From: Deltaproteobacteria bacterium
GTDB lineage: Bacteria > Myxococcota > Myxococcia > Myxococcales > SZAS-1
Assembly (NCBI GenBank): GCA_018266075.1
Contig: JAFEBB010000067.1
Coordinates: 1-40,124 of the forward strand
Length of the DNA: 40,124 bases
Direction of reading: 5' to 3'
Each line of letters starts with the position of its first letter. Positions within the stretch are counted from its first letter, which is position 1. Made by a program: the position numbers and the translations under genes. Shown here piece by piece: positions 7,819 through 40,067 of the stretch. Under the pieces are notes generated by a model. It did no database searches. It was not told where the DNA came from and was given only the letters and a program-made list of their open reading frames with translations.

Positions 7819-7857
7819 GGGCGCGTCGGCACGATCAGCCGCTCGGCAGGCTGCACA

Positions 7858-8064: not shown

Positions 8065-8120
8065 CGGTCCTCCGCCGGTCGCGCGCACGCTTCGAGGATA
8101 GTCGACGTCTGCCAGCTGCG

Positions 8121-9969: not shown

Positions 9970-10203
9970 ATGTCAAAGCCTCTGGTCTACCGCCTTGCGC
10001 CACTGATCCTGCTGGGGCTCTGCCACTGCGGATCTTCGATCCACCTCTGCAAGTCGGACCTTCCCGATGGCGGCTGCATCGCGCGGGTCGTGTGTCCCGA
10101 CCAGTCCTGCAAGGCCTTGGAACAGGAATTGGCCGACGACGAGCCCGGAAGACCGAACCCCGCCGCGGTGCAGTGCGTCCACACTGGCGGCGGTTGCGAG
10201 TAG
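9970..10203 (+). CDS. Small Cys-rich exported protein, copy 1
   Basis: 77 residues from the ATG at 9970. MSKPLVYRLAPLILLGLCHC is a short signal sequence ending in two Cys; the lipobox is non-canonical (LGLC or LCHC), so lipidation is uncertain. The mature part is only about 57 residues with six more Cys (HLCKSDLP, GGCIARVVCPDQSCKA, AVQCVHTGGGCE), suggesting a disulphide-stabilised periplasmic or outer-surface domain. A second copy lies at 13448-13702. No family recognised. Confidence 0.65.
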   Translation: MSKPLVYRLAPLILLGLCHCGSSIHLCKSDLPDGGCIARVVCPDQSCKALEQELADDEPGRPNPAAVQCVHTGGGCE

Positions 10204-10223
10204 CGACATGGACGCCGACGCGG

Positions 10224-10297
10224 CGGGCGCGACCCGCTGATGGAGGCGATGCGGACCAACTTCCGTTGACGCCGCATCGGCTCGATCAGCCGCACGA
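10224..10297 (+). pseudogene. GH18 3'-end fragment with downstream flank
   Basis: This stretch matches 7771-7848: GACCCGCTGATGGAGGCGAT, the terminal TTCCGTTGA, and then about 25 bases of the parent's downstream flank (CGATCAGCCGC). Only the last ~14 codons of the GH18 gene are retained. It lies between the Cys-rich protein and the desaturase, on the same strand as the parent. Confidence 0.8.
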
Positions 10298-10418
10298 CCG
10301 CCTCGCGTCGAGGCCCGTGACTGGGGCGTGACCGCGATCGCGTAGTGTGATGCCTTGCCGTCGTCTGGCCCGCTCTGAGCATTGCGATCGGGAAACTCCG
10401 TTCGCGTTGGAGCCTGTG

Positions 10419-11198
10419 ATGTGGGCCATCCTGAGCCTCTTGGTTTTGCACTGGTCGGTGTCGATCTTCGGGCAGTCGTTCTTCCACCACCGCTACGGTG
10501 CGCACCGGATGTTCCAGATGAGCCCGTTCTGGGAGCGGTTCTTCTACGTCTTCACCTTCATCGCCCAGGCGCCGAGCTTCCTGGTGCCGCGCGCGTACGC
10601 GATCTTGCACCGGCAGCACCACGCGTTCTCCGACACCGAGAAGGATCCGCACTCGCCGCTGTTCTGGCCGAACGCGGGCGTGATGATGCTGCAGACCAAG
10701 CACCGCTACGACGCTTACGCGTACAAGCGTGAAGAGCCCGAGGCCCGCTTCGACGGCGGAGTCCCCGAATGGCTGTTCCTCGACAAGCTCTCGCAGCACT
10801 GGGGCACGCGGGTCTTCCTGGGCGGCCTCTTCGTGCTCTTCTACTTGCGCTTCGCGCCAACGCTCTGGTGGTTCCTGCTGCTGCCGATTCACTGGCTGCT
10901 CGGACCGATCCACGGCGCCATTGTGAACTGGTGCGGCCACAAGTACGGCTACGTCAACTACGACAACGGCGACCACTCGAAGAACACGTTGATCTTTGAC
11001 TTCGTCACCTTTGGCGAGCTCTTCCAGAACAACCACCACAAGTTCGGGATGAGCCCCAACTTCGGCGTGCGCTGGTTCGAGCTCGACCCGTGCTATCAGG
11101 TGATGAAGTTGCTCAACCTCGTGGGCATCATCGACATGTCTGGCGCGCAGGTGCCGCGATATCCGCTGGCCCAGGTGGCGCCAGCGACGCCCAAGTAG
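10419..11198 (+). CDS. Membrane fatty-acid (acyl-CoA/acyl-lipid) desaturase
   Basis: 259 residues from the ATG at 10419, chosen because GGAG lies six bases before it; an upstream ATG at 10347 would give an implausible basic leader. Histidine boxes coordinate a di-iron centre: HHRYGAHR at 23-30, HRQHH at 64-68 and NNHH at 204-207. Hydrophobic spans at about 1-20, 38-58 and 130-170 fit the four-helix membrane topology of the desaturase family. It would insert a cis double bond into acyl chains, probably adjusting membrane fluidity; the position of the bond cannot be read from the sequence. The usual C-terminal box of delta-9 enzymes (HNxHH) appears as FQNNHHKF. The gene is monocistronic. Confidence 0.88.
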   Translation: MWAILSLLVLHWSVSIFGQSFFHHRYGAHRMFQMSPFWERFFYVFTFIAQAPSFLVPRAYAILHRQHHAFSDTEKDPHSPLFWPNAGVMMLQTKHRYDAYAYKREEPEARFDGGVPEWLFLDKLSQHWGTRVFLGGLFVLFYLRFAPTLWWFLLLPIHWLLGPIHGAIVNWCGHKYGYVNYDNGDHSKNTLIFDFVTFGELFQNNHHKFGMSPNFGVRWFELDPCYQVMKLLNLVGIIDMSGAQVPRYPLAQVAPATPK

Positions 11199-11295
11199 AA
11201 ATCCCGGGTCGCCGACGTCGCCACCTTGCCCCTACCCCCTGCGCGGCACGGTCGAGACGGTATGCGCGGCGCGTGACAACCCGAATCCGCCCTCT

Positions 11296-11369
11296 CGACG
11301 AGCAATCGATCGCCGCCAAGGCGAGCGACGTGAAGCCATCGGGGCTCGGCGGCGTCATCGTCTGGGAGG
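11296..11369 (+). pseudogene. Internal fragment of the GH18 gene 3' region
   Basis: About 74 bases matching 7667-7740 and 8267-8340: CGACGAGCAATCGATCGCCG through GGCGTCATCGTCTGGGAG. It carries the copy-2-type GACGAGCAATC, so it is closer to the truncated copy at 8121 than to the intact gene. It has lost both flanks and starts and ends abruptly in unrelated sequence, on the same strand as the parent. Confidence 0.82.
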
Positions 11370-11458
11370 AGCCGGCGCCGTGCCCGGCGGTGGCGGTTGT
11401 CTGAACGGCCTCATCCCGCCGCCGGCTCCGAGGAGCACGGCATCGTACTTCCCGAGGG

Positions 11459-12505
11459 TCAGGTCCCCGCGTCGGTGGCGAAGTCGCCGGTGGAAGGCCC
11501 CGAGGCGAAGTCCGTCATCGACGAGGTGCCCGGTCCCTGGAAGCGGCGGAGGATCATGTTCCCGCTCGACGGCGCGCAGGTGAAGTTGGCCAGGACCGGG
11601 TAGCCGCTGGTGTCGAGCCCCAGGTTGGTCGGCGTGCAGCTGACCTCCATGGTGAAGACCGAACCGCTGTTGTCGACGCCGAGGACCTCGATGTCGGCAT
11701 TGCCCGTCGAGCTTCCGCTGAAGCCGGCGGTGAGCGTGAAGTAGATGGTGCCGCCGGTCAGGTTGGGCACCACGTTGTTGCTCAGGGTGCCGCTCGAATC
11801 ACCGGTGAAGGCCACCTGGGCGTTCGACCCGGAGATCGAGAGCCCGTTGGGGAACGACGGGCCGCCGCCGGGCATCTGGGTGATGGTGCCCACGTCGAAC
11901 GAGGCCAGGAACGAGACGTTCTCCGCCACCACGCCGTCGAAGGCATGCGTGTAGGGCGTGCCGTTCACGGTCGTCAGGTTGGAGTTGATGTTGAAGGAGC
12001 CCGAGACGAACGTGCCGTGCGTGGGGCAACCCGCAGCCGGGCAGCTCGAGCCGGAGGAGCCGCTGGAGCCGGAGCTGCTGCCGCTCGACGTCGTGCCGGT
12101 CGAGCCGCTGCTGCTCGAGGTGCCGGTCGAGCCGCTGCTGCTCGAGGTGCCGGTCGAGCTGCTGCTGCTCGACGACGCGCTGCTGCTGCTCGACGAGCCG
12201 CTGCTGCTCGACGACGAAGTGCTGCTGCTCGACGACGAGCCGCTCTCGCTCTGGCAGACATTGTCGACGCAGGTCTGGGAGGCGGTGCACTGGCCGCAGT
12301 TCACGCTTCGGCCGCTGCCGCAGTTGTCGAAGCCGGTGAACACATCGCAGTTCTTGGCGAGCCTGGCGCAGTAGGCCTGATCGGTTTCCTTCTCGCAGCC
12401 ACCGGTCGAGCCGCCGCCGGTGCTGCCGCTGTTGCCGCTGCTGCTGCTGCTGCTCCCACACGCGGCCAAGGCCAGAAGGCCGACCGCCATGAACCGCATC
12501 AACAT
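11459..12505 (-). CDS. Lipoprotein with EGF-like Cys motif and Ser-rich stalk
   Basis: 348 residues from the ATG at 12505 (another in-frame ATG lies at 12499). MLMRFMAVGLLALAACGSS is a lipoprotein signal with lipobox LAAC. Residues about 35-85 hold eight Cys (GGCEKETDQAYCARLAKNCD, NCGQCTASQTCVDNVC), a pattern common in myxobacterial surface lipoproteins. A Ser/Gly stalk of roughly 80 residues follows, then a beta-rich C-terminal domain (about 165-348; GTFVSGSFNINSN, GTIYFTLTAGFSG) that I cannot name. It would stand off the outer membrane. Surface adhesion or binding is a guess. It is divergent from the lipoprotein gene at 12738. Confidence 0.75.
   Translation of the reverse strand: MLMRFMAVGLLALAACGSSSSSSGNSGSTGGGSTGGCEKETDQAYCARLAKNCDVFTGFDNCGSGRSVNCGQCTASQTCVDNVCQSESGSSSSSSTSSSSSSGSSSSSSASSSSSSSTGTSSSSGSTGTSSSSGSTGTTSSGSSSGSSGSSGSSCPAAGCPTHGTFVSGSFNINSNLTTVNGTPYTHAFDGVVAENVSFLASFDVGTITQMPGGGPSFPNGLSISGSNAQVAFTGDSSGTLSNNVVPNLTGGTIYFTLTAGFSGSSTGNADIEVLGVDNSGSVFTMEVSCTPTNLGLDTSGYPVLANFTCAPSSGNMILRRFQGPGTSSMTDFASGPSTGDFATDAGT
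12096..12160 (-). repeat. 27-nt minisatellite encoding the serine stalk
   Basis: Units of 27 bases beginning CCGGTCGAGC start at 12096, 12123 and 12150, the third degenerate. On the minus strand they encode the nine-residue repeat STGTSSSSG. Flanking sequence continues as poly-Ser codons. In-frame slippage here would change stalk length. Confidence 0.75.
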
Positions 12506-12621
12506 GCTCGCCCCGTTGTGTGGAGCGCCCAAGCTACGCTGTTTCCGGCGTCACGTCGCGCCCGAGATTCCCTCGACCCCACCGGCGGGCTGCCTCGAGT
12601 CATCGGGACGCGTCCCGAGAG

Positions 12622-12662
12622 GATGGAGGCGATGCGCACCAACTTCCGTTGACGGGGCGTCG
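12622..12662 (+). pseudogene. Terminal fragment of the GH18 gene
   Basis: About 40 bases, GATGGAGGCGATGCGCACCA then ACTTCCGTTGA and a short flank, equal to the last codons of the GH18 gene (EAMRTNFR, stop). It is the shortest of the four fragments and sits between the divergent lipoprotein genes at 12505 and 12738. Confidence 0.75.
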
Positions 12663-12737
12663 GGAGAAGGCGTCGGGGGATGGGTCCCATTGAAGCTTTT
12701 CTTGCTCCTGCGCTACTCAGCCTCGAAGGAGCTGCGC

Positions 12738-13418
12738 GTGCCCAATCAAGAACGAGCTCATCCCTCCGTGTTTATTCGGCTTCAGCTCGCCGCGATGGCG
12801 CTCGTGTTCACGGCCTGCGCCGGATCCGGCGGCTCGTCGAGCGCGACGGCCAGCACCGGCACGAGCGCCTCGAGCACCTCCGGCACGACGGGTTCTACCG
12901 GCACGGGCACGAGCGGCTCGAGCAGCGGCACCGGCACGAGCGGGTCAGCGACCTCGGGTGCGCCTTTCGCCAGCATCACTCCCGAGGTCATTCCGCAGGC
13001 GTCGGTGTTCGGCTTCGCCATCGGCAATCCGCCCCGGATTGGGATGATTGCCTTTCCTTCTTCCGCGACGTGCGCGGACGCGGCTGCCGCGACCGACGGA
13101 CCGTTCCTCGACATCGAGGTGGACAACGAGACCAGCCCGGGGACTTACGCCGTGGGTGAGAACGGGATGGGAGACGTCCATGCCGCGAACCTGCCCTCTG
13201 CGGATGGGCCGTACTCGTTGATGGGCGGACCAGGGACCATCACCTTGACTCAAATGGGCCCGAACGAAGTCGCGGGCTCCTTCGATGTGCAGATGACCGC
13301 GGTCTACTTCGTTGTCTGCGATGGCGGCTGCGGCATCGACACCGGCTACGATGTCTTCGTGGACGCGGGGCGCCTCTCGGGTTCGTTCGACCTCCCCGTG
13401 TGCGCAACCGCGTTGTGA
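12738..13418 (+). CDS. Stalked lipoprotein of unknown function
   Basis: 226 residues from the GTG at 12738, with GAAGGAG ending six bases before it. The signal VFIRLQLAAMALVFTACAG carries a lipobox (FTAC). Residues about 30-75 are a Ser/Thr/Gly stalk of the same style as the GH18 lipoprotein. The C-terminal ~150 residues are beta-rich (PEVIPQASVFGFAIGNPPRI, GTYAVGENGMGDVHAANL, GTITLTQMGPNEVAGSFDVQ), with Cys pairs near the end (VVCDGGCG) suggesting disulphides. This is a compact surface domain that I do not recognise. It is followed 30 bases later by the second Cys-rich protein. Confidence 0.75.
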   Translation: MPNQERAHPSVFIRLQLAAMALVFTACAGSGGSSSATASTGTSASSTSGTTGSTGTGTSGSSSGTGTSGSATSGAPFASITPEVIPQASVFGFAIGNPPRIGMIAFPSSATCADAAAATDGPFLDIEVDNETSPGTYAVGENGMGDVHAANLPSADGPYSLMGGPGTITLTQMGPNEVAGSFDVQMTAVYFVVCDGGCGIDTGYDVFVDAGRLSGSFDLPVCATAL

Positions 13419-13447
13419 GGACGAGCCGGGACCGGAGGGCTGCTCGA

Positions 13448-13702
13448 GTGCGCTGGCCTCTGTTCCAACGCGGAGCGCACCTCGCCCGCCGCCTCGCGCC
13501 GCTGATCTTGCTGGGGCTCTGCCACTGCGGAGCTTCGATCCACCTCTGCAAGTCAGCACTTCCCGATGGCGGGTGCGTCGCTCGGGTCACCTGTCCCGAC
13601 CAGTCGTGCAAGGCCTCCGAACAAGAGCTCGCCGACGACGAGCCCGGAAGACCGAACCCCGCTGCGGTGCAGTGCGTACACACAAGCGGCGGCTGCCTGT
13701 AG
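13448..13702 (+). CDS. Small Cys-rich exported protein, copy 2
   Basis: 84 residues from the GTG at 13448, with GGAGG at 13434-13438. From RLAPLILLGLCHCG onward it aligns end to end with the protein at 9970: all eight Cys are conserved, as is the ADDEPGRPNPAAVQCVHT stretch. The two genes match over about 210 bases (9990-10203 and 13489-13702) at very high identity by eye; the N-terminal leader differs. A recent duplication across 3.5 kb is implied. Confidence 0.65.
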   Translation: MRWPLFQRGAHLARRLAPLILLGLCHCGASIHLCKSALPDGGCVARVTCPDQSCKASEQELADDEPGRPNPAAVQCVHTSGGCL

Positions 13703-13751
13703 CGAAAGAGGGTCTTCGACTCGTGGCTCGCGGCTTGGGGCGAATCGCGGG

Positions 13752-28826: not shown

Positions 28827-31800
28827 CTACGCCTGCGCCGGCGCCTTCCCACCCAGCCGCTGCTTGAGCCGCGCCAGCGCCGGCAAGAGCTCCCGCGCGC
28901 TCTGGCGGGCCTGCAGCTCCGCGCGTGAGAGCGCATCCACCGCCGAAGCGCCATCGCCCCGCTCCACCGCGGCCCGCGCCAGCGCGTACCGCACGTGCGC
29001 CTGCTTGGCGGGCTCGTTGCCGTCGGAATCGGCGATGCCCTGCAAGGCCTCGAGCGCCCCGTTCACCCCGCGCAGCGCTCGCGCCAGGAGCTCATAGAGC
29101 TCGCACAGGCCCTGCAGCCGCCGCGGCACCAGCTTGCGCGCCTCCGCCAGCGACGACTCCGCTTCGCGCGCGCGCTTCAACTCCAGATGTGCCAGGCCTT
29201 CGGCCAGCAGGGCCACGCCCCGCACCGTCGCCGGCACCTCCGGCTGATCGAGGATCTCCTGCGCGGCCTGCAGCGCCTCGTCGCTCCGGCCCGCGCCCAC
29301 CAGCGCCACCGCCCGCTGGGCGCCCGCGCGCACCGCGTGGGTGGGATCGCCGCCGACGGAGAACAGCCGCTGCGCCTCGCCCTGCTCCCGCGCCGCGCCG
29401 CGCAGGTGTCCACCCGCTTGAGCTGCCGCGCCGAGCGCCGCACGCGCCCGAGCCAGGAGCGTCGGAGAGCCCTGACGCTTCGCCGAGCGCAGCGCCTGCC
29501 GCGCGTAGCGCACGCTGCCGCGCACGTCGCCGGCGATGGCGTCGACCGTCGCGGCCATGCCGAAGAGCTCCGCCGAGAGCTCCGCGTCCTTGGCCCACAC
29601 CACGACATCCGCCGCTTCCGTCGCCGCAGCCTTGGCGCGCTCGAGATCGTCCTGAGCGAGCGCAGCCTGGGCCTGGGCACTCAGGGCCTCGGCCAGCGCG
29701 CGGGTGCGACCGACCTTTCGGGCCGCTTCGGCCGCGCGATCGGCGAGCGCGCGCACTTCCGCGTAGCGTCCCTGGCGAACCAGGGCCCGCGCCTGTCGCG
29801 CCAGCGCGTCGGCGAGCTCGGGCGCGCGGCTCTGCTCCGCCGCCTTGGCCGCCTTGCCGAAGAACTCCGCCGCTTCCGGGGCTGCGCCCGCCATCAACGC
29901 GTCCTCGCCCGCGCGCATGCAGGTGCGCAGGGCCTCGAACGCCGAGTCGCTCCGGGCGAAGTGGAAGGCGAAGAGCGCCGGCGCGCTCTCCGGCTCGCAC
30001 ATCTTCAGCCCGCGGCCGACCGCGCCGTGCAGCGCCAGCCGCCGCTGCGGATCGAGCATGGCGTAGATGGCCTCTTGCACCGCGCGCGAGCGGAAGCGCA
30101 GCTTGCCCAGCCGGCGCTCGAGCAGCTCGCTCTTCTCCACGTTGGCGATGGCGTCGCGAACGTTGGCGTGGCGATCGAACTCGCGCAGCGCCTCGTGCAG
30201 CACCTCCACGCCCGCGCGCGCGCCGCCGAAGACGGCCACCAGCTCGGCCATGGTCCGCGGGTCCTCGTCGAGCCCCAGGGTCCAGGCGCTGCGCAGGTCC
30301 GCGTCGTCGGCGACCTTGCCCTTGAGCTTGAGGAACCGCGCCGCCGCCTGCATCCGGAAGGGGTTGCCCTTGCCCACCGCGGCCGCGCGCGCGAGCTGCT
30401 CCGGCGTGAGCGTGGGCTCGAGCTGGGAGAGCAACGTGGCCGCGAGCGACAGGTCCAGATCGCCGAGGTGCAGCTTCTCCACGGGCAGCCCGGCGAACTC
30501 GGGCAGGTTGTCCTGCACGTGCGCGACCAACCAATAGATTGGCTTCTCGGCCAATTCCTTGGCCACGTTCTCCCAGACCGCGGCGCTGCTCGCGTCGGCG
30601 TAGTGGGCGTTGTCGATGCCCACCAGGAGGGGCGCGTCGCCGGCGCGGTGCGCGAGGATGCCACGGAGCAGCTCGGCCACGGCCTCGGGCGTCGCCGGGC
30701 CGCGCGCGCCGAGCAGCACGGCGGCGTAGGGCGCCACCGGCGAGAGCCGTCGATCGAGCCGGGAGACGGCGTCCGGGGCCTTGCCCGGATCGGTGTCCGA
30801 CGGCAGCCGCAGCAGCTGGCGCATCAAGCGTCCCGCGAGGGCCCAGGGCCGCTCGGAGTCCGCGTACGTGAGCCGCGCGGTCACCGCCGAGCCGCCCGCG
30901 CTCGACCAATCGGCCACGGCGGCGTCGAGGAGCACGCTCTTGCCCGTGCCGCCCGCGCCGGACAACCGAACCATCGCCGCGCCGCCCTGCCGCACGCGCT
31001 GTCCGCGCTCGTGGAGCAGGGCCAGCTCGTGCTCGCGGCCCAGCGGCCCGGCCAGGTTCACGGCCTCGCTGGTGCGCGGACGCGCGCGAAGGGGCTGGGT
31101 CTCCGGCGCGGCGAGCAGCAGTCCCGGCGCCGCGGGCGAGCCCTTCTCCTCCAGCACCACCTGCGGCAACGCCTCGATGCCGAAGCCCCAGAGCTGGGTG
31201 CGCGCAGACGGACCGACCACGGCGTCGCCCAGGCGCGCCAGCGGCAGCAGGCGACTGGCGACGTCGAAGGCCTCGCCGGCCACGGCCAGCTCCCGCTTCA
31301 ACCCGGAGCCCACCTCGCCCACGAAGACCGGACCGGACTCCAGCGCGCACGCCAGTCCCAGGCCCTTGAGCTCGATGGCGCACGCGGCGGCGCGCTCGGC
31401 GTCGGTGCGCGCGCCCGGTGAGGCGAAGCTGGCGTGGAGCCGGAAGCCGTCCAGCCCGACGTCGACCGGACCGACCCGACCGCCCGCTCGGCGAATGGCG
31501 ACCACCGCGTTGCGGAAGACCTCGCCGAACGCGCGGGCGTCGGCGTTGGCGCGGGCGCCGTCCCAGTCCGCGGCGCCCATGCGCGCGAGCACCACGGCCG
31601 CACGGCGGATCTCGGGCTGCAGCTCGCCGCGCTGGCCGTCGAGGTCCGGCGCGAGCGCCTCGGGCACCAGCGGCAAGAGGCGCTCCAGGGCGGCCTTGGG
31701 CGCAGCGGCGATCTGGGCCTCGAGCTTGCGCAGCGGGACCTTCTCGATGGCCGGCGCGTCGGCGAGCACGATGCCGCCCTGCGAGAGGCTGCCCTTGGTG

Positions 31801-32390
31801 GCGCCGGGGACGCGGCTGAACGTGGCCTCGTCGGCGACGGCGTGGCCCCAGGGCGCACCTGCGGCGCCCTCGAGCGCGCGCTTCACCACCGCGCCGCCGG
31901 GCACGCAGGCCACGCGATCGTGACCGACGCCCAGGTAGACCAGGCTGAACGGCCCGCTGGCGATGCCGATGCGCGCCTTCAACGGCCGGACGCCGGCGGC
32001 GGTCTGCACCGCGCCGTAGGCCTTCATGCCGTCGAGCATGGCGCAGGCGCACCAGGCGGCGCGGGCGGCGGCGGTGGGCCCTTCGAAGAACGCGGTCAGG
32101 CTCTCGCCGCCGAAGCGCAGCAGGTAGCCGTCGGCCGGAAAGAGCGCGCTCTCCAGCAGGCCGCCCAGGAGCGCGCTGGAGATGCGGGCCAGCTCCTCGG
32201 CGCCGGCGCGACCGCGCGTGCCCAGGCCCTCGGCGAGCGCGGACAGGCCGGAGAGCTCGAGCCGGAGCATGGCGCCGTCGCGGCGCTCGAGCGGCGGGAA
32301 CTCCCGCTCGGGCTGCTCCAGCACCGAGACGAGCGCGTGGAACGGCACGTAGCCGGCAAGGCGGGCGAGCAGCTCTCGGGGAGTGGCCAT
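28827..32390 (-). CDS. Giant signalling ATPase: degenerate cyclase domains, AAA/STAND-type ATPase, TPR repeats
   Basis: 1187 residues from the ATG at 32390. Residues about 40-200 are a class III nucleotide-cyclase-like domain, but both metal-binding Asp positions appear as Glu: E45 in LRLELSGLS and E96 in FGGESLTAFF; a second, more degenerate cyclase-like region spans about 262-398 (GPVFVGEVGSGLKRELAVAG). The AAA ATPase follows, with Walker A GAGGTGKS at 478-485 and a Walker-B-like PLLVGIDNAH. The C-terminal ~450 residues are helical repeats of TPR type (AEFFGKAAKAAEQSRAPELA, ALARQARALVRQGRYAEVRA and similar). This is the layout of large myxobacterial regulators that sense partners by TPR. 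Cyclase activity is doubtful because of the Asp changes. Confidence 0.85.
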   Translation of the reverse strand: MATPRELLARLAGYVPFHALVSVLEQPEREFPPLERRDGAMLRLELSGLSALAEGLGTRGRAGAEELARISSALLGGLLESALFPADGYLLRFGGESLTAFFEGPTAAARAAWCACAMLDGMKAYGAVQTAAGVRPLKARIGIASGPFSLVYLGVGHDRVACVPGGAVVKRALEGAAGAPWGHAVADEATFSRVPGATKGSLSQGGIVLADAPAIEKVPLRKLEAQIAAAPKAALERLLPLVPEALAPDLDGQRGELQPEIRRAAVVLARMGAADWDGARANADARAFGEVFRNAVVAIRRAGGRVGPVDVGLDGFRLHASFASPGARTDAERAAACAIELKGLGLACALESGPVFVGEVGSGLKRELAVAGEAFDVASRLLPLARLGDAVVGPSARTQLWGFGIEALPQVVLEEKGSPAAPGLLLAAPETQPLRARPRTSEAVNLAGPLGREHELALLHERGQRVRQGGAAMVRLSGAGGTGKSVLLDAAVADWSSAGGSAVTARLTYADSERPWALAGRLMRQLLRLPSDTDPGKAPDAVSRLDRRLSPVAPYAAVLLGARGPATPEAVAELLRGILAHRAGDAPLLVGIDNAHYADASSAAVWENVAKELAEKPIYWLVAHVQDNLPEFAGLPVEKLHLGDLDLSLAATLLSQLEPTLTPEQLARAAAVGKGNPFRMQAAARFLKLKGKVADDADLRSAWTLGLDEDPRTMAELVAVFGGARAGVEVLHEALREFDRHANVRDAIANVEKSELLERRLGKLRFRSRAVQEAIYAMLDPQRRLALHGAVGRGLKMCEPESAPALFAFHFARSDSAFEALRTCMRAGEDALMAGAAPEAAEFFGKAAKAAEQSRAPELADALARQARALVRQGRYAEVRALADRAAEAARKVGRTRALAEALSAQAQAALAQDDLERAKAAATEAADVVVWAKDAELSAELFGMAATVDAIAGDVRGSVRYARQALRSAKRQGSPTLLARARAALGAAAQAGGHLRGAAREQGEAQRLFSVGGDPTHAVRAGAQRAVALVGAGRSDEALQAAQEILDQPEVPATVRGVALLAEGLAHLELKRAREAESSLAEARKLVPRRLQGLCELYELLARALRGVNGALEALQGIADSDGNEPAKQAHVRYALARAAVERGDGASAVDALSRAELQARQSARELLPALARLKQRLGGKAPAQA

Positions 32391-32529
32391 TTCGCGGGGC
32401 ACAATACCCGCCCGCCGAGGGTACGACCAAGGGCCTGAAGGCCCGAACGTTGGGTCGGGGCGGAGGCCTGGGATGCCTGGGCGCCGGTGCAAGGCTTTCC
32501 CGGGTTGACTGGGGCGCCCACTTGCTTGG

Positions 32530-32672
32530 GGAACGGTGATCGTGACTGGTACTCGGTGAGCACGCGCGCGGTTCGCAATTTGGGATTTCGGCTGCCGGGA
32601 TGAGAGCGGTCGGGCAAAGTGGGCTGGACCGTGTGGGACCGCTCACGGTTCACCAGTCACGATCACTGTTCC
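32530..32672. repeat. Inverted-repeat element, copy A
   Basis: A 32-base arm at 32530-32561 (GGAACGGTGATCGTGACTGG...) pairs with 32641-32672 at 27 of 32 positions, with about 80 bases between. The right arm, extended to 32749, matches 38948-39052 in reverse orientation at high identity. With 32391-32793 otherwise ORF-free, this is an intergenic mobile-type or structural repeat just before the RlpA-like gene. Confidence 0.75.
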
Positions 32673-32793
32673 CGAAGCACCTGCATCTGATTTGTGGAAC
32701 CGGGGAAACCCGAGCACCCCGGGCCCGCCGGCGCCCCGACGGGCGACGGCCTGGGATGCAATCGATGGCCCACTCGCGCGTATCCTCGGGACC

Positions 32794-33189
32794 GTGCCGA
32801 CGCGCGTTTCACACCTGGTCTTCGCGGCTCTGCTTGTCGGAATGGCATCCGGCTGCGCGCATCGACCGGCGACCGCCGGCTACGCCGAAGAGGGCATCGC
32901 GGGCTACTACGGCAAGGACTTCGACGGCCGGCGCACGGCGAGCGGCGCCATCTTCCACGCCGAGGCCAAGACCTGCGCGCACCGCACGCTGCCCTTCGGC
33001 GCGATCGTCGAGGTCACCCGGCTGGACAACGGCCGCAGCGTGGTGGTCACCGTCACCGATCGCGGGCCCTTCGTCTCCGGGCGCATCATCGACCTCTCGC
33101 TCGGCGCCGCCCGGCAGATTGGCCTGGTGCAGGCGGGCCTGACGCGGGTGCGCATCGCCGTCTTGAGCGTCCCGCCGAGCAAGCGTTGA
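32794..33189 (+). CDS. rlpA: RlpA-like septal-ring lytic transglycosylase lipoprotein
   Basis: 131 residues from the GTG at 32794. PTRVSHLVFAALLVGMASGC is a lipoprotein signal with lipobox ASGC. The double-psi beta-barrel follows: GIAGYYGKDFDGRRTASGAI, then CAHRTLPFGAIVEVTRLDNG and VTVTDRGPFVSGRIIDLSLG, with the catalytic Asp in TDRGPF. RlpA binds denuded peptidoglycan and cleaves glycan strands at septa. Here the C-terminal SPOR domain is missing, so septal targeting must differ from the classical protein. It is followed 45 bases later by a PilZ gene. Confidence 0.88.
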   Translation: MPTRVSHLVFAALLVGMASGCAHRPATAGYAEEGIAGYYGKDFDGRRTASGAIFHAEAKTCAHRTLPFGAIVEVTRLDNGRSVVVTVTDRGPFVSGRIIDLSLGAARQIGLVQAGLTRVRIAVLSVPPSKR

Positions 33190-33233
33190 CCCGGGGTGGA
33201 GCGTTTGGTACCCCACGCCCCGGGGAAAAATCC

Positions 33234-33557
33234 GTGTCCGACCGCCGCTCCGAAGCGCGCCACAACGTGGTGATCACCATCGAGCTCGCCTTCGAGCGCG
33301 CGCACTCGCTGCACGCCTGCGAGAACCTGTCCGCCGGCGGCGCCTTCTTCCGCCACGCCATCCCCTATCGCGTGGGCACCAAGGTCGCGGTCACCTTTGG
33401 GCTGCCCGGCGAGCGCGAGCTCATCCGCTGCGACGGCGAGGTGGTCAACGTGCCGCGGCCGCAGGAGTACGGCATGGGCGTCCAGTTCCTGGGGCTGCCC
33501 GACGACGTCCGCGCGCGCATCGCCAGGTTCGCCGAGCAGGCTTCCCAACAGAGCTAG
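33234..33557 (+). CDS. PilZ-domain (c-di-GMP-binding) protein
   Basis: 107 residues from the GTG at 33234. The RRSEARHN opening supplies the RxxxR motif and ENLSAGG supplies the second c-di-GMP motif (D/N-x-S-x-x-G), followed by strands RVGTKVAVTFGLP, IRCDGEVVNVP and YGMGVQFLGLP typical of the single-domain PilZ paralogues of Myxococcus. Such short proteins bind c-di-GMP and act on a partner. Preceded by RlpA and followed by a lipoprotein gene; whether it is cotranscribed is not known. Confidence 0.9.
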   Translation: MSDRRSEARHNVVITIELAFERAHSLHACENLSAGGAFFRHAIPYRVGTKVAVTFGLPGERELIRCDGEVVNVPRPQEYGMGVQFLGLPDDVRARIARFAEQASQQS

Positions 33558-33644
33558 CAGGCTCCAGCGAGCGGGCGGATGCCGTTTCGCCCGGGCGGCG
33601 GGGCATTTAGTATCCAGGCGCGCGTTCTGACGCGGAGAGCCTCC

Positions 33645-34079
33645 ATGAGAATCGTCGCTGTCGGCTTGCTCGCCTTCGCCCTCCTGGGCTGCCCGAGCCA
33701 CGAGCACAACGGCGCCTTCATGCACCAGATCGACGTGGACTCCACCTCGGTGAAGGCGCCCAAGCAGGACCGCTGCGAGGCGTACAAGTCGGCGGCCACC
33801 ACCTACTCGCAGTGCCAGCAGTTCAAGAGCGACGCGGTGACCTACCTGCGCAAGCTCAGCCCCAACGACTCGGTCTGCCTGGAGGAGGGCTTCGGCGAGG
33901 AGCCCGGCCCGACCTGCAAGGCCCGCGGGACCATCGTCGACGCCGATGAGCACGGGATGCTCATCCGCGTGAACGATCCGATGCTGCAGTCGAAGTGGAA
34001 GGACTACCAGGACAAGCGCGTGTACTTCGAGAACGGCGCGCTCATCGATCTCTACCTCCGCGAGCGGGGCTACGAGTGA
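33645..34079 (+). CDS. Small lipoprotein of unknown function (144 aa)
   Basis: The ATG at 33645 is preceded by GGAGAG. MRIVAVGLLAFALLGCPS is a lipoprotein signal (LLGC). The mature domain has four Cys (RCEAYKSAATTYSQCQQFKS, VCLEEGF, TCKARGT) and ends in a beta-rich segment (HGMLIRVNDPMLQSKWKDYQ, then RVYFENGALIDLYLRERGYE). I do not recognise the family. Its stop overlaps the start of the EcsC gene (GTGA), so translation is probably coupled. Confidence 0.75.
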   Translation: MRIVAVGLLAFALLGCPSHEHNGAFMHQIDVDSTSVKAPKQDRCEAYKSAATTYSQCQQFKSDAVTYLRKLSPNDSVCLEEGFGEEPGPTCKARGTIVDADEHGMLIRVNDPMLQSKWKDYQDKRVYFENGALIDLYLRERGYE

Positions 34080-34618
34080 AGATACCCGGGCGCAACGAGC
34101 TCGCGAACCTCGCCAACCAGCGCATGGACGCGCTGGTGCTGGGCGAGATCGGCCGGGCGCGCCTGCGCATCCACGCGCTGGAGCGGCGCTACCCGTCGGC
34201 GCAGCAGCGCGAGCTCGCCGAGCACCTGGTGGAGGCCAAGAAGCGCATGGGCTCCACCAGCGGCGCCATCTCCGGGCTCTTCGGGCTCGCGGCGATCCCG
34301 GCGGACCTGGTGCTGGTGACCTACTTTCAATCCGTGCTGCTGGTGGAGATCGGCACGCTCTACAAGGTGAACTTGAAGACCGAGCACGCCCGCAATGAGA
34401 TGCTGGACCTGCTCGGCTACGCGAACGGCGTGGGCCCCATCGTCCGCGCGGGGCCGAAGCTGCTCGGGCGCATGGCGCTCACGCTCTTCCAGCGCGGCGG
34501 CCTGCCCACGGTCGGGCGCGCGTTCCCCGTCATCGCCGCGCCGGTGACCGCCTACCTCAACGCCAAGGCCATCGAGCGCGTGGGCGAAGAGGCCAAGCGC
34601 TTCTACGCCCATCGCTGA
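34076..34618 (+). CDS. EcsC-family protein
   Basis: 180 residues from the GTG at 34076, overlapping the lipoprotein stop. Landmarks of the EcsC family are GAISGLFGLAAIPADLVLVT then YFQSVLLVEIGTLYKVNL, MLDLLGYANGVGPIVRAGPK and the closing PVIAAPVTAYLNAKAIERVG. In Bacillus EcsC accompanies the EcsAB ABC transporter and is linked to secretion and competence. Here it is coupled to a lipoprotein. Topology is amphipathic or peripheral with one or two hydrophobic stretches. Confidence 0.85.
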   Translation: MKIPGRNELANLANQRMDALVLGEIGRARLRIHALERRYPSAQQRELAEHLVEAKKRMGSTSGAISGLFGLAAIPADLVLVTYFQSVLLVEIGTLYKVNLKTEHARNEMLDLLGYANGVGPIVRAGPKLLGRMALTLFQRGGLPTVGRAFPVIAAPVTAYLNAKAIERVGEEAKRFYAHR

Positions 34619-34624
34619 CGCCCG

Positions 34625-35125
34625 TCAGACTCCGCCGTCGGCCAGGCACACCGGGTCCGTGGTCTCGTTCGGGCAGGTGGTGGCGGAGATCTGCTTGTTC
34701 ACCGCTGGCAGCCCGCGCAGGAAGCTCACGATGTTGCCGAGCTCCGGGTCCTGCATGCTGCCGAAGAGCGGCATCACGCAGAGCGTCTGGCACCGCTTGT
34801 TCACGCCGCCGGTGATGGCCCGGCGGATCTCGGCGTCGGTCCAGTTGCCCAGGCCGGTGTCCGGGTCGGGCGTGAGGTTGGCGGGAAAGCCGGAGACGCC
34901 GGCCTCGGTGACGCCCGCGGGGTTCCCGCTGAAGTCGGCGGTGTGGCAGTTCGCGCAGCCGTGGGCCTGAACCGCCGCCGCGCCCGCGTCGGTGACGGAG
35001 AGCGGCGGGCCGGCGTCGCCCGGGCCACCATCGGTGCCGCCGCCGTCGGTGGCGTCGCTGGACCCGCTGCAGCCAGCGAGGAGCGCGGCGAGTGCGGCAG
35101 GGACGATGAGGGCTCGAACGTTCAT
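34625..35125 (-). CDS. Lipoprotein c-type cytochrome
   Basis: 166 residues from the ATG at 35125 (MNVRALIVPAALAALLAGCS; lipobox LAGC19). A Gly/Asp linker precedes a mono-haem domain: CANCH at 57-61 binds haem c covalently, and MPLFG in the region RCQTLCVMPLFGSMQDPELG supplies a probable distal Met. The remaining TSS-like cysteines (TTCPNETTDPVC) may form a disulphide. It would be an outer- or inner-membrane-anchored electron carrier of the periplasm. An upstream ATG at 35158 would put a charged leader before the signal. Confidence 0.88.
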   Translation of the reverse strand: MNVRALIVPAALAALLAGCSGSSDATDGGGTDGGPGDAGPPLSVTDAGAAAVQAHGCANCHTADFSGNPAGVTEAGVSGFPANLTPDPDTGLGNWTDAEIRRAITGGVNKRCQTLCVMPLFGSMQDPELGNIVSFLRGLPAVNKQISATTCPNETTDPVCLADGGV

Positions 35126-35246
35126 GGCGAGGTGGCGCCGGGGGTTGGCGGCGGACACCTTTTGATTCCAAGTGCCCGGCTGAGGTCACGCACCTTTTGG
35201 GAAACACCGCATCGCTCGGTTGGCGCGGCCGTGCGAGCATGCGCGC

Positions 35247-35993
35247 ATGCAAGACGTCTACGCCTTCGACGTGGGCGACTTCGGCAAGCTCGGGCTGCTG
35301 CGCCACCTGCTGGCCGGCCCGCGCGCGCCGCGCCTGGGCGTGCTCTGGTACGCCACCGCGCTGCCCTCAGCGGCCCAGGACGGAAAGCACATCGACTACC
35401 TGGAGCTGCCGCGCGCCGAGGCCGCCCGCTTCCGCGACTGCGATCCAGCGCTCTACGACCGCTTTCGCGCCGCGCTCCGACGCCCGCGCGCGGTGCGCTC
35501 CATGGCGGCGCTCGAGCGACTCCGCGTCTGGCCGACGGACACGCGCTTTCACCGCGTGGCCACGCCCAGCGGCGACGCGCGCACACCCTGGTTCCAAGCG
35601 GCCCAGGGCGCGCTCGCGGACTGCGGCGCCATCTTCTGCGACCCGGACAACGGCGTGGCCAACCCCGACTCCGAGAACGAGCGCCGCTGCTCGGCCAAGC
35701 ACGCGCTGCTGCATGAGCTCTCAGCGCTCGCAGACGCAGGCCACGGGCTGGTCGTCTACCACCACCTCACCCGCGAGAAGGGCGGGCATGCGGCTCAGAT
35801 CGGCCGATGGATGGCGGTCCTGAAGCGTCGCACGGGCGCGCGAAACGTGGCCGCGCTGCGCTTCTGTCGAGGCACGAGCCGCGCCTTCTTCGTCCTCGAC
35901 GGCCCGCGCGCACCGAATCTGGTGAATCGCCTTGGCGCGCTGCAGGGCTCACCGTGGATTGAGCGCGAGCACGCCGAGCTCTTCCTCAGTTGA
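35247..35993 (+). CDS. Conserved DPDNG-family protein of unknown function
   Basis: 248 residues from the ATG at 35247. The family pattern, recalled from many genomes, is an opening YxxDVGDFGKLGLLRHL, then LGVLWY, DGKHIDYLELP, CDPALYDRFR, and the core IFCDPDNGVANPD, followed by SALADAGHGLVVYHHL and a late ARAFFVLDGPRAPNL-type strand (here TSRAFFVLDG). The Asp-rich core suggests a nuclease- or transferase-like fold, but no activity is known. It is convergent with the Lon-N protein, overlapping its end by eight bases. Confidence 0.75.
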   Translation: MQDVYAFDVGDFGKLGLLRHLLAGPRAPRLGVLWYATALPSAAQDGKHIDYLELPRAEAARFRDCDPALYDRFRAALRRPRAVRSMAALERLRVWPTDTRFHRVATPSGDARTPWFQAAQGALADCGAIFCDPDNGVANPDSENERRCSAKHALLHELSALADAGHGLVVYHHLTREKGGHAAQIGRWMAVLKRRTGARNVAALRFCRGTSRAFFVLDGPRAPNLVNRLGALQGSPWIEREHAELFLS

Positions 35994-36651
35994 GGACGCC
36001 GCCGTCCTCGGGCTCGGGGCGGGCCTTGAGCAGCGCGTCGCCGACAACGTCGAGCGCGAGCTGCAGCCGCTTCCCAATGGCCAGCTCCTCCAGCACCTTC
36101 TGCCGCAGCGACGCCTCACTGCAGAGCGCCGCCGTGCACACGTCGGCCAGGTCGCCCGGGTCCTTGAGCGCCCCACCCGCGCGGGCCAGCTCCTGCGACG
36201 CCTCGCCAGGCACCGCCGCGCAGAGCGAGAGCAGCGCGTGCCGCAGGGTCTCCGAGAGCCGCGCGTCCGCCGGCGCCTCCTCCTGCGGCAAGCGCGCGCG
36301 CACCACGCGATACGGCTCCTCGGGGGGCAGCTCCTCCACGATCTCCGCGCGCCCCACGCCCACCAGCTGGATGTTGAAGCGGCCGTCGGGGAGCTTCTCT
36401 TCCTGGGCGATGCGCCCCACCCCGCAGATGCGCCGCACCCGCGGACGCCCGTGGTAGTCCTGCTCCCAGCCTGGCTCGAGCATGCTCATGGCCAGCATGC
36501 GGTCGCCCGCGAGCGCGTCGGCCACCATCTTGCGGTAGCGCGGCTCGAAGATGTGCAGGGGCAGCACCGCGCCCGGCAGCAGCACCGCCGTGGGCAGCGG
36601 GAAGATCTTCAGCCGATCGAGCGACCGGGCGAGCGCCTCGCGCGAGAACAT
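35986..36651 (-). CDS. Lon N-terminal substrate-binding-domain protein
   Basis: 221 residues. The stand-alone N-terminal domain of the Lon family (PUA-like barrel plus helical bundle): LKIFPLPTAVLLPGAVLPLH then IFEPRYRKMVADAL, VRRICGVGRIAQEEKLPDGR and FNIQLVGVGRAEIVEELPP. No AAA or protease domain is present. Such proteins may bind unfolded or damaged substrates; a role is not established. The C-terminal region is helical. Confidence 0.9.
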   Translation of the reverse strand: MFSREALARSLDRLKIFPLPTAVLLPGAVLPLHIFEPRYRKMVADALAGDRMLAMSMLEPGWEQDYHGRPRVRRICGVGRIAQEEKLPDGRFNIQLVGVGRAEIVEELPPEEPYRVVRARLPQEEAPADARLSETLRHALLSLCAAVPGEASQELARAGGALKDPGDLADVCTAALCSEASLRQKVLEELAIGKRLQLALDVVGDALLKARPEPEDGGVLN

Positions 36652-36741
36652 CCTCTTCGTTGTAGCCCGCGCGGCCCCGAAAAGCGACGCGCCCCGGCCC
36701 CCTCGCGGGAACCAGGGCGTGTGTGCTGCGCTGCTTCGAAG

Positions 36742-37341
36742 TTACTTCGCGGGAGCCGCCGGAGCGCCAGGCGTGGCCGCAGAGGCGGTCTTGTCGCCGC
36801 CACCGCCGCCGCCGGTGAGGGTGGCGAAGTTCAGGTTGAAGTAGCCGGCCTGGTTGGCCGAGTACATCACGCGCTTGATGATGGAGAACTCCACTTCCTT
36901 GTCGGCCTGGATGTTCACCTCACCCTTGAAGCCGCCCTCCTTGTCGCCCTCGTGGAGGACGTCGAGGCGCTTCTTCTCGTCGCGGAGCTTCTCCTCGAGC
37001 GCGGGGATGTTCCAGTACTCGTCCTTGCCGAGGTCGGCCACCTGGGCGACGGTCTCGCCCTGCACCAGGATGGCGGTCTTCGACACCTGGACCACCGGCT
37101 TCATCTCGATGGGGTCGCCGTTGTTCGCAGTGGGGAGCTGGATGTCCTTGGTCATGAAGAGCACCTCGCCCGTCGCCGAGAAGTTGGCGATGAGGAAGAG
37201 CACGATGATCACGAACATGTCGACCAGCGGGGTGATGAGCAGGTCGGCGAAGACGCCCTTCTTGCCGTGGGCGCCCTTGCCGAAGATCTTGCTCTTCATG
37301 AGCCGCGGGCCAAACCGCTTGCCAGGGACGACGATGGGCAT
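36742..37341 (-). CDS. TolR/ExbD-type stator protein 2
   Basis: 199 residues from the ATG at 37341 with AAGGA before it. One membrane helix at about 34-55 (LLITPLVDMFVIIVLFLIAN) contains the proton-relay Asp D41. A long periplasmic domain follows, and the C-terminus is Gly- then Ala/Pro-rich. Such proteins form the proton-driven stator with a TolQ/ExbB/MotA channel, transmitting energy across the envelope. The length and the extended loop (EEKLRDEKKRLDVLHEGDKE) are unusual for ExbD. Confidence 0.88.
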   Translation of the reverse strand: MPIVVPGKRFGPRLMKSKIFGKGAHGKKGVFADLLITPLVDMFVIIVLFLIANFSATGEVLFMTKDIQLPTANNGDPIEMKPVVQVSKTAILVQGETVAQVADLGKDEYWNIPALEEKLRDEKKRLDVLHEGDKEGGFKGEVNIQADKEVEFSIIKRVMYSANQAGYFNLNFATLTGGGGGGDKTASAATPGAPAAPAK

Positions 37342-37352
37342 GACTGGTTCCT

Positions 37353-37820
37353 TTAGCCGACCGCGCTGACGCTCACCGCGTCGAGCTTGTTGCCCACGCA
37401 CTCATCGATCACCTTCACGAGGTCGATGTACTTCACCTTGTCCTCGCTCTGGACGGTGATCTGGTGCTGGTCGGGGTAGTTGGTGTGAAGGGCCTTGAGC
37501 TTGTCGTCCAGGGTCTTCACGTCGTAGCCGCCGTTCGCCTTGGGGATGTCGGCGTACACCGCGTTCTGCGCGTTGATGGTGTAGCCGCGCTCGCTCACGA
37601 CGAGCGTCAGGTTGAGCGCCTTGTCATCCGGGGGCGTGTCCTGACTGGGCCCGCCCGCCTGGCTCACCTGGAGCCGCGAGATCTGGGTCCAGACCGCGGT
37701 CATGATGAGGAAGCTGATGGTCACCGCCATCAGGTCGATGAAGGGCACGAGGTTGATCGCCGTGTCCAACGGCTTCTTCTTGCCCTTGCCACCTGTACCG
37801 AGATCCATGCCGCCGGCCAT
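37353..37820 (-). CDS. TolR/ExbD-type stator protein 1
   Basis: 155 residues; the ATG at 37820 has a strong AAGGAGGT box. The single membrane helix (about 22-45, NLVPFIDLMAVTISFLIMTA) carries the conserved Asp D29. The periplasmic part has LVVSERGYTINAQNAVYADI and KVKYIDLVKVIDECVGNK, matching the ExbD core. It is 11 bases from the second ExbD gene, so the two are probably cotranscribed. Confidence 0.9.
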   Translation of the reverse strand: MAGGMDLGTGGKGKKKPLDTAINLVPFIDLMAVTISFLIMTAVWTQISRLQVSQAGGPSQDTPPDDKALNLTLVVSERGYTINAQNAVYADIPKANGGYDVKTLDDKLKALHTNYPDQHQITVQSEDKVKYIDLVKVIDECVGNKLDAVSVSAVG

Positions 37821-37906
37821 GGCAGCACCTCCTTCCACATCACGCCGCTTTTACTTCCGCGGCTGGAGCCATCAGCTTACGCCAACGGCCCCTGGGTTCA
37901 GAGACT

Positions 37907-37931
37907 GGGCGGGCCCAAAAAGTTCCCGCCC
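37907..37931 (-). terminator. Hairpin between TolQ-type and ExbD-type genes
   Basis: GGGCGGG at 37907-37913 pairs with CCCGCCC at 37925-37931 over an 11-base A-rich loop. It sits in the 132-base gap of the operon and could attenuate transcription or stabilise the messenger; no T tract follows. Confidence 0.4.
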
Positions 37932-37952
37932 CCGAGAACGCTGCGACGCTTC

Positions 37953-38693
37953 TTACTCGTCGCCGCCGTCGGTCGGCATGTTCGCCGGCATCTTGAACTT
38001 GTCGCGGTTGGCGATGATGAGGTTCAGCACGCCCACCGAGGCCTCGTTGATGTCGTCGACCATGTGCTGGGTGCGGCCCATGAGGATCGAGAAGGCAATG
38101 AGCGACGGGATCGCGGTGAGGAGGCCGAACGCGGTGCAGTTCATGGCTTCCGAGATACCGTTCGACAGAATGGTCGCCTTGTCGGCCGGGTTCACGTGGG
38201 CCACGGCCTCGAAGCACTGGATGAGGCCGTTCACGGTGCCGAGGAGGCCGCAGAGCATGGCCGCGTTGCCCACCATGGCGAGGTAGCCGGTGCGGCGCTC
38301 GAGCTTGGGGTTCTCGCGGAGGGTGGCCTCGTCCATGGCGGCCTGGACCTCAGCCTCGCCCTTGGGGACGTTCATCAGGCCGGCCTTCACCACGCTGGTG
38401 AGCGGCGTGACCTTCTGGCCCGCGGTGTAGCTGATGGCCTTCTCCAGGTCGCCCGCGTAGATGTGCTTCTTCAGGCCACGCATGAAGGCGTCCTTGTTGA
38501 TGGAGGCCTTGCTGAAGAGCGTGTACGAGCGGTCGATCACGATCGCCAGGAAGAAGATGGCGCAGACGGTGATCGGGTACATACCCACGCCGCCGTCATT
38601 GAACCGCTTGGCGATGGTGCCAATCACGCCCGTCTCGGAGGGCGCGTCCGCCGCCTGCGTCAGCACGAAATTCGCCAGCTCATGGATCAGCAT
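37953..38693 (-). CDS. MotA/TolQ/ExbB-family proton channel
   Basis: 246 residues with membrane helices at about 35-55 (GMYPITVCAIFFLAIVIDRS), 135-165 (GYLAMVGNAAMLCGLLGTVN) and 175-205 (GISEAMNCTAFGLLTAIPSL). The loop and the GLLGTVNGLIQCFEAV and EAMNCTAFGLLTAIP segments are the core of the TolQ/ExbB channel, which with TolR/ExbD conducts protons to drive work in the envelope. One channel gene plus two TolR-type genes matches the gene content of the AglRQS gliding motor of Myxococcus, but the sequence alone cannot separate this from Tol-Pal or TonB systems. Confidence 0.92.
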   Translation of the reverse strand: MLIHELANFVLTQAADAPSETGVIGTIAKRFNDGGVGMYPITVCAIFFLAIVIDRSYTLFSKASINKDAFMRGLKKHIYAGDLEKAISYTAGQKVTPLTSVVKAGLMNVPKGEAEVQAAMDEATLRENPKLERRTGYLAMVGNAAMLCGLLGTVNGLIQCFEAVAHVNPADKATILSNGISEAMNCTAFGLLTAIPSLIAFSILMGRTQHMVDDINEASVGVLNLIIANRDKFKMPANMPTDGGDE

Positions 38694-39212
38694 CGTTCTG
38701 TCCTCCGGTCCTCCGGTAGCGTTCGGCTGCCGGGTCCGCGCCGGTGAGCGCGGAAGGTATTAAAAGTCCTGTTTCAATCCAGTCGTGACCGGGCTTGCTT
38801 CACCCGGGTGTCTGCAAAACGGGCGGCGACTGTAGTGGGCCCATGCGACGGGTGTCAAGCCACGCCCCGATTAAGATCAGGATCAGCAACCGAGGGTCGA
38901 CACCAGCTTGGGGCAAGAGGTTCCAGCTGTCGAGAGGGTCCCTGGGGCCGCCGCCCGGGGCGTCGGCGGGCCCGGGGCGCTCGGGTTTCCCTACTTGCCT
39001 CGGCAGATGCAGGTGCTTCGGGAACGGTGATCGTGACTGGTGAACCGTGAGCCGCTCACCGAGCACCCATCACGTTCACGGTTTCCGAGGCACCTGAGCG
39101 CCCGAGCGCCCCAGGGGAACCTGCAGGAGCCCGCCGTAAAATTGCTGGTTTGCTCAACGCGATGCTAGCGTCGCGGACTTCGGGGGATTTTTCGCCGCCG
39201 GAGGACCACGGC
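38694..39212. promoter_or_regulatory. 519-base divergent intergenic region
   Basis: It separates the TolQ-type start (38693) from the GspE-N gene (39213). An AT-rich patch (TATTAAAAGTCC) at about 38758-38769 is a plausible promoter for the TolQ operon; no -35 is clear. The right part holds the inverted-repeat element (copy B). No ORF is convincing. Confidence 0.45.
38948..39086. repeat. Inverted-repeat element, copy B
   Basis: Arm 39021-39052 (GGAACGGTGATCGTGACTGG...) is imperfectly inverted at 39054-39086, forming a near-continuous cruciform. The arm and its left flank 38948-39020 match 32641-32749 in reverse orientation; the arm itself differs at one of 32 positions. Confidence 0.75.
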
Positions 39213-40067
39213 ATGGCACGCAAGCGTCTCGGCGAGCTGCTCCTGGAGCAAGGCGCGATCACCGCGGAGCAGCTCCAGGCAGGGCTCGGCCTCCAACGAC
39301 AGAGCGGCAACCGGCTCGGCGCTGCCCTCGTCGCCCTCGGCGTCCTCACCGAGGAGCGGCTGGTGGGCGCCCTCGCCGTGGCCCTCTCCCTCGAGACCGT
39401 GAACCTCGACAAGCTCGAGGTGGAGTGGAGCGCCCTCCACGCCCTGCGCGACCGCTTCTGCGACGCCAACGACCTCTTCCCCGTCTCCATCGAGGCCAAG
39501 CCCACCGGTCGCAAGGTGCTCACCGTGGCCATGGCCGATCCGCTGAACCTCGCCGCCGTCGAGGAGATCGAGTTCACCACCGGCTTCAAGGTCCAGCCCA
39601 AGCTGGCCACGCTCTCCCAGGTGCGGAACGCGATCCGCCGGCACTACTTGAAGCTGCCGCCCGAGGAGAAGAAGCCCGCGCCCATCCCGCCGCCCATGCC
39701 AGAGGCCACTGCACCGCCGCGGCCGGTGTCGGAAGAGGTGGTGCTCACCGACGCCGTCATCGAAGAGGTCGCGCCCACCAAGCCGGTGCCGCCGCCGCAG
39801 CGGCAGATCAGCGGCCGAACGGACCTCGCCGAGCTCATCCGCAAGCGCGAAGAGGCCGTGAAGAAGCGCGCGCGGCCCTCGAGCGGGGGCGGGCCACGCA
39901 CCGCGCTCGAGTCCGACCTCGAGTACCTGGTGGGCGAGCCCATGTACGGCCCCGACGCCTACGAGCAGATCGATCGCCTGGAGCGCAAGCTCTGGGCGCT
40001 GATGCGCATCATGGCCAAGAAGGGGCTGCTCACCCGCGAAGAGTTCCTCGCGGAGTTCGAGGACTAG
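39213..40067 (+). CDS. GspE N-terminal-domain protein
   Basis: 284 residues from the ATG at 39213, with GGAGG at 39200-39204. Residues 1-150 match the GspE/PilB N-terminal domain: KRLGELLLEQGAITAEQLQA, then GLGLQRQSGNRLGAALVALG and VLTVAMADPLNLAAVEEIEF with TGFKVQP. A Pro-rich linker (about 155-210) and a helical, charged C-terminus follow (LIRKREEAVKKR, YEQIDRLERKLWALMRIMAK). There is no ATPase domain. Stand-alone GspE-N proteins are abundant in Myxococcota and may regulate secretion or c-di-GMP signalling. Function is unknown here. Confidence 0.9.
   Translation: MARKRLGELLLEQGAITAEQLQAGLGLQRQSGNRLGAALVALGVLTEERLVGALAVALSLETVNLDKLEVEWSALHALRDRFCDANDLFPVSIEAKPTGRKVLTVAMADPLNLAAVEEIEFTTGFKVQPKLATLSQVRNAIRRHYLKLPPEEKKPAPIPPPMPEATAPPRPVSEEVVLTDAVIEEVAPTKPVPPPQRQISGRTDLAELIRKREEAVKKRARPSSGGGPRTALESDLEYLVGEPMYGPDAYEQIDRLERKLWALMRIMAKKGLLTREEFLAEFED

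Follow-up and report, generated by a model that had tools for sequence, protein, structure and literature searches.

Dispersed heptamer-array palindromes in a myxobacterial genome as probable gene-less relatives of elements encoding an IVP/S23 protein

MITEs are short, dispersed elements that carry no gene and have inverted ends, and these ends are common to an autonomous element encoding a transposase. REPIN/RAYT systems, the closest described concept to the repeats reported here, consist of intergenic hairpins arranged as head-to-head doublets, with singlets occurring as well, and their copies bracket one candidate partner gene (available part of PMC3116915). The Coxiella IVS has terminal inverted repeats that form a stem and GACAGAT heptamers beside an S23p ORF; an older proposal cited in the same source holds that the IVS ORF served mobility (excerpts of PMC4990558). 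Dispersed heptamers have been described in Xanthomonas (GGGAATC, with 70–75 inverted pairs) and Nostoc [GGGGA(C/T)T; PMC4692102], and also in Beggiatoaceae (PMC4679880, in part). The available text of PMC4692102 considers G-quadruplexes and reports that the heptamers were, in general, not associated with mobile elements; none of the terms "intervening," "helix bundle," or "S23" appears in it.

The window, the whole stretch of 40,124 nucleotides analyzed here (contig JAFEBB010000067.1 of a myxobacterial genome assembly), contains two members of a family that shares with REPINs intergenic inverted hairpin doublets as well as singlets (27 of its 51 elements are head to head, 21 single-armed and 3 direct) and the bracketing of one gene. 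Two features set it apart from them: a PF05635 four-helix bundle takes the place of the tyrosine transposase as partner, and its unit is a heptamer array whereas the REPIN unit is a single palindrome (PMC3116915, as far as available). MITE-like, it is dispersed and gene-less with inverted ends. Neither a transposase nor a target duplication of constant length was found, the related insertions of IVP units having 3–5 bp or none; its ends are common with an IVP-gene element that encodes no known transposase. An IVS of the 23S rRNA type is excised by RNase III. The protein family, the terminal inverted repeats and the heptamers beside the ORF are held in common with the Coxiella IVS, but the IVS lies in 23S rRNA and the units described here, including both window copies, are dispersed between protein genes (excerpts of PMC4990558); with the heptamers of Xanthomonas and Nostoc the family has dispersed intergenic arrays in common (PMC4692102, in part).

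The first-pass annotation had noticed a segment of ~105 bases recurring in inverted orientation, with paired arms in each copy. The recurrence is real, as two inverted pairs (I1 and I2) are the longest inverted repeats of the window and, apart from a local partner arm (I3), the others are at most 37 nt. The paired arms were likewise found in both copies (32463–32563 with 32639–32751, and 38946–39054 with 39052–39124); the size of the unit has to be revised, the true extents being wider, as follows.

32641–32689 with 39004–39052: inverted pair I1, 49 nt, 98% complementary
32703–32745 with 38949–38991: inverted pair I2, continuing I1, 43 nt, 88% complementary
32463–32751, minus strand: element 1, a head-to-head pair of arms with a spacer of ~79 nt
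32639–32751, minus strand: strong arm of element 1, 120.5 bits, running from the heptamer-array end at 32639 to the GGCC-hairpin end at 32751
32463–32563, plus strand: partner arm of element 1, 49.3 bits
32523–32561 with 32641–32679: local arm pairing at copy 1, 85%, 79-nt spacer
28827–32402 (minus) and 32842–33189 (plus): genes on either side of the divergent gap that holds element 1
38946–39124, plus strand: element 2, a head-to-head pair of arms without spacer, RNA fold z −7.4
38946–39054, plus strand: strong arm of element 2, 112.2 bits, with terminal hairpin
39052–39124, minus strand: partner arm of element 2, 35.9 bits
38946–39054 with 39052–39124: arm pairing at copy 2
37953–38693 (minus) and 39213–40067 (plus): genes on either side of the divergent gap that holds element 2

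The sequence CCAGTCACGATCAC occurs three times exactly in the window and nine times when up to three mismatches are allowed, a number reached by none of 100 shuffles. Genes near the two elements encode AAA_16, DPBB (RlpA-like), MotA/TolQ/ExbB and MshEN proteins, and an Rfam search of the window gave no match. The window also contains long direct repeats at 7519–8417 and 9990–13705 (300 nt, 95%; 217 nt, 88%), perhaps tandem paralogues.

The genome of origin belongs to the Myxococcales, and MAGs of this order supply the nearest named relatives of one protein encoded in the window. Throughout this genome (7.84 Mb, 166 contigs), blastn with element 1 as query returned 57 matches and a covariance model built from 19 arms returned 82 at E ≤ 1. 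Applied to the retrieved stretches of this genome together with the window, the model gave 81 arms at E ≤ 0.01 in 51 clusters; the weakest few arms score 19–32 bits, and the family has about 51 members. A core 22-mer, with up to three mismatches, occurs 51 times in the genome against none for the reversed control, and one match, on contig C16, lies outside the listed elements. The exact core pattern had no match in the other genome contigs searched. Neither blastn in 39 relatives of the same order nor the covariance model in 116 other genomes of the order produced a convincing copy, the weak matches (in 5 of the 39 by blastn; five singletons among the 116, E 6e-4 to 6e-3) being read as chance, and 80 named loci gave no match below E 0.068. 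On this sequence comparison, the family looks lineage-specific.

In the best copies, the outer part of the arm contains a small covarying GC hairpin; the inner part of each arm is an array whose repeats are ~7 nt long. Self-matching over the inner 36 nt reaches 0.551 (55%) at an offset of 7 and 50% at 14, against 0.30 after shuffling; the inner arm is thus an array of degenerate heptamers that reads approximately CGGTGAT-CGGTGTG-CGGTGAT-CGG. At the start of the best arms stands the hairpin GCCGtCGCCC-GGGCGcCGGC, in which 98.8% of cells pair and five cells have changed on both sides, compared with 0.9 expected from shuffling. Because two arms stand head to head, a single strand folds back on itself as a long hairpin; the reported RNA fold z values are −7.4, −7.4 and −17, and each of the window elements accounts for one of the −7.4 values. 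Most single arms stop abruptly at the array end, as judged by eye. Covariation from arm to arm shows best over the 8 innermost nt (0.88 vs. 0.817, p 0.0003), is weaker as far as 33 nt and is gone at 40; in the outer parts, likeness within elements is not above that between elements and is, if anything, lower. Selection on one RNA strand was considered and found unsupported, since arms differ from each other by GU and by AC mismatches equally often (64 vs. 67).

Genes were called with a simple codon-model caller, by which 86% of the retrieved DNA is coding, and all 51 elements lie in intergenic gaps when overlaps of up to 70 nt with called gene ends are disregarded. Their gaps are tandem in 27 cases, divergent in 18 and convergent in 6, a split that is as predicted by gap lengths (12,032 tandem, 6,622 divergent and 2,273 convergent bases in element-free gaps). 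Of the 27 elements in tandem gaps, 25 are closer to the stop codon of the gene upstream (median 11 nt) than to the next start (median 107 nt). Inspection of the flanking genes by eye showed a wide range of ordinary types, housekeeping genes among them, and no transposase was recognized beside any of the 51 elements.

These counts bear on the remaining suggestions of the first-pass annotation, for which confinement of the copies to the two window sites would have spoken against a mobile element. The 57 blastn and 82 model matches in the same genome supply the copy number that had been called for and show that the family is not so confined, and the proposal of a MITE or structured palindrome holds in kind, as the repeats form a dispersed, intergenic, hairpin-forming family. 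The envelope-related neighbors (RlpA-like and MshEN) are not meaningful, many housekeeping types, as judged by eye, adjoining the 51 elements. An inversion switch between the two window copies, flipping the intervening block, was likewise considered and has no supporting sign: the 6 kb between them consists of ordinary genes, and element pairs less than 10 kb apart are no more than moderately over-represented in the genome as a whole (9 observed, 3.2 expected; 11 of 2,000 simulations gave as many). The "envelope" neighbors look incidental, as does the inverted spacing of 6.3 kb.

The same genome has two 23S_rRNA_IVP (PF05635) genes, on contigs C41 and C35. On C41, a gene of 120 amino acids is bracketed by arms of the window family, two on each side and inverted, with flanking arms of 88 and 87 nt; this copy has the PF05635 gene between inverted ~7-nt arrays, and the window copies are gene-less. 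Its protein matches PF05635 at 88.5 bits (cut-off 33.8) and also TIGR02436, the nearest solved chain being 2gsc (XCC0516, E 1.5e-4). Of the two ends of the C41 unit, one matches 32 and the other 24 further loci of the genome, every match falling inside an element; neither the body of the gene nor any of four control stretches has a match. The C35 gene is bracketed by inverted arrays of a different heptamer, GTTCCTG, which is itself dispersed in the genome (137 matches vs. 1 for a reversed-pattern control), as palindromes: 5 of 21 inspected loci carry at least three units on each strand. The C35 protein weakly matches the DGR accessory protein Avd (25.9 bits, below the cut-off of 80). The IVP family is not known to have catalytic activity.

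PF05635 is present in 33 of 145 genomes of the order. Among 31 IVP loci (29 from relatives, two from the genome of origin), 23 with full 400-nt flanks were scored and eight with cut or short flanks were dropped. An inverted-flank score of at least 19 was reached by 12 of the 23, against 2 of 1,497 random intervals and none of 71 small genes of the genome of origin, leaving 11 below threshold; a period-6/7 array score of at least 21 was reached by 14 of the 23, against 8 of 1,497 and 0 of 71. Of 30 PIN control loci, 5 outside the length window were dropped; 1 of the remaining 25 passes the inverted score and none the array score. A third IVP-flanking array family, in genome G035, is also dispersed (149 vs. 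3 for the control). By tblastn, IVP was found in 39 plasmid records, mostly of cyanobacteria, 14 of which were examined. Since the period-6/7 score alone is unspecific on cyanobacterial plasmids (47 of 1,112 control intervals reach 21), this analysis rests on the inverted score, which 9 of the 14 loci pass against 0 of 1,112 control intervals; the other five score 12–15, some with visible array-like flanks.

Comparison of these plasmids with relatives having empty sites showed precise insertion of a unit that comprises an array, the IVP gene and an inverted array.

L294: 503-bp insertion, empty in L362 and L363, 3-bp repeat ATG
L364: 413-bp insertion on the same backbone but at a different gap, empty in L294, 5-bp repeat TTCTA
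L287: ~518-bp insertion, empty in three relatives, 10–11 bp replaced
L285: 494-bp insertion, empty in L365, 13 bp replaced

Target-site repeats are inconsistent across these sites (3 bp, 5 bp, or 10–13 bp replaced), and a further comparison, for L286, is not clean, as the relative has 273 other bases at the site. In the Nostoc N6 plasmid pNPM1 (L398), a gene-less unit of 182 bp at 982–1163, with inverted arrays of the same heptamer, interrupts an IVP gene; this gene is that of L364, being identical at 192 of 193 bases before the break and at 195 of 200 after it, and the insertion is recent. Because the IVP gene is broken by an array pair, gene-less array pairs insert as units. Relatives of the 182-bp unit occur at 98 places in 43 plasmid records. 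Mobility is demonstrated for relatives of this kind, and we infer it for the window family.

We regard it as likely that the window repeats are non-autonomous REPIN/MITE-like elements, gene-less relatives of an IVP-encoding mobile element. The mobile unit would consist of a heptamer array, the gene for the IVP/S23 four-helix bundle and an inverted heptamer array, the C41 copy having the arms of the window family. In the likely mechanism, the IVP protein would recognize either the array or the hairpin, in the form of RNA or of single-stranded DNA, and act in trans with host enzymes, by which full and gene-less units would be copied into intergenic sites; the IVP protein is thereby a candidate mobilizer. 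Points against this reading are the 11 of 23 order loci and 5 of 14 plasmid loci below the inverted-score threshold, the inconsistent target-site repeats, the lack of a known catalytic activity in the IVP family, the equal counts of GU and AC mismatches, and outer arm parts that resemble each other no more within elements than between them. It appears very unlikely that the repeats are a REP/REPIN family mobilized by a RAYT, a Y1 tyrosine transposase whose gene lies elsewhere in the genome: the doublet architecture and intergenic location do resemble those of REPINs and the genome has two Y1_Tnp genes, but neither of these genes has an arm nearby at a score above chance (best 5.5 bits, E 0.83), the RAYT-like one has a different inverted repeat of its own (37 nt, 97%), and the family arms bracket the IVP gene instead, so a Y1 transposase was rejected as partner.

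That the repeats are an ordinary MITE of a DDE transposon, with the IVP gene captured by chance between two copies, would agree with the inverted ends, the high copy number and the absence of a gene, but is most improbable, given that no transposase was recognized by eye beside the elements, that target-site duplications at the empty IVP sites are inconsistent and that many genomes show the array–IVP–array pattern, with arrays that differ. We also consider it unlikely that they are immobile cis elements under selection (terminators, stabilizers of mRNA ends or protein-binding palindromes). The strong RNA folds and the position of tandem-gap elements next to the upstream stop codon speak for such a function; that position, however, would also result from insertion that spares promoters, the gap types match the length-weighted background, no class of neighboring gene is conserved by eye, and convincing copies are absent from the 39 relatives searched by blastn and the 116 searched with the model. 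The genome does contain what looks like a classical REP/RAYT pair on contig C10 (L032, 1391–1939), a RAYT-like Y1 gene within its own 37-nt inverted repeat, 97% complementary.

More tentatively, the preferred reading, that of gene-less relatives of an IVP-encoding element, might extend to a widespread class of transposase-less elements whose sole gene is IVP/S23 (kin of DGR Avd), whose ends are inverted heptamer arrays and which spawns gene-less palindromes, these being many of the heptamer families of myxobacteria, cyanobacteria and perhaps xanthomonads. If so, the role of the orphan S23/IVP protein and the dispersed heptamer repeats of bacteria would have a common origin, and mobility would be possible without a known transposase. 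No paper linking IVP genes with dispersed heptamer palindromes was found, which is weak evidence for novelty because preprints and most subscription journals were outside the search. In genome G025, oppositely oriented pairs of PF05635 matches a few hundred bases apart occur four times, L272 being one such locus, and on the cyanobacterial plasmids L286, L291 and L295, IVP genes lie inside CRISPR operons (cas6-IVP-cas4 twice and cas10-IVP-cmr3).
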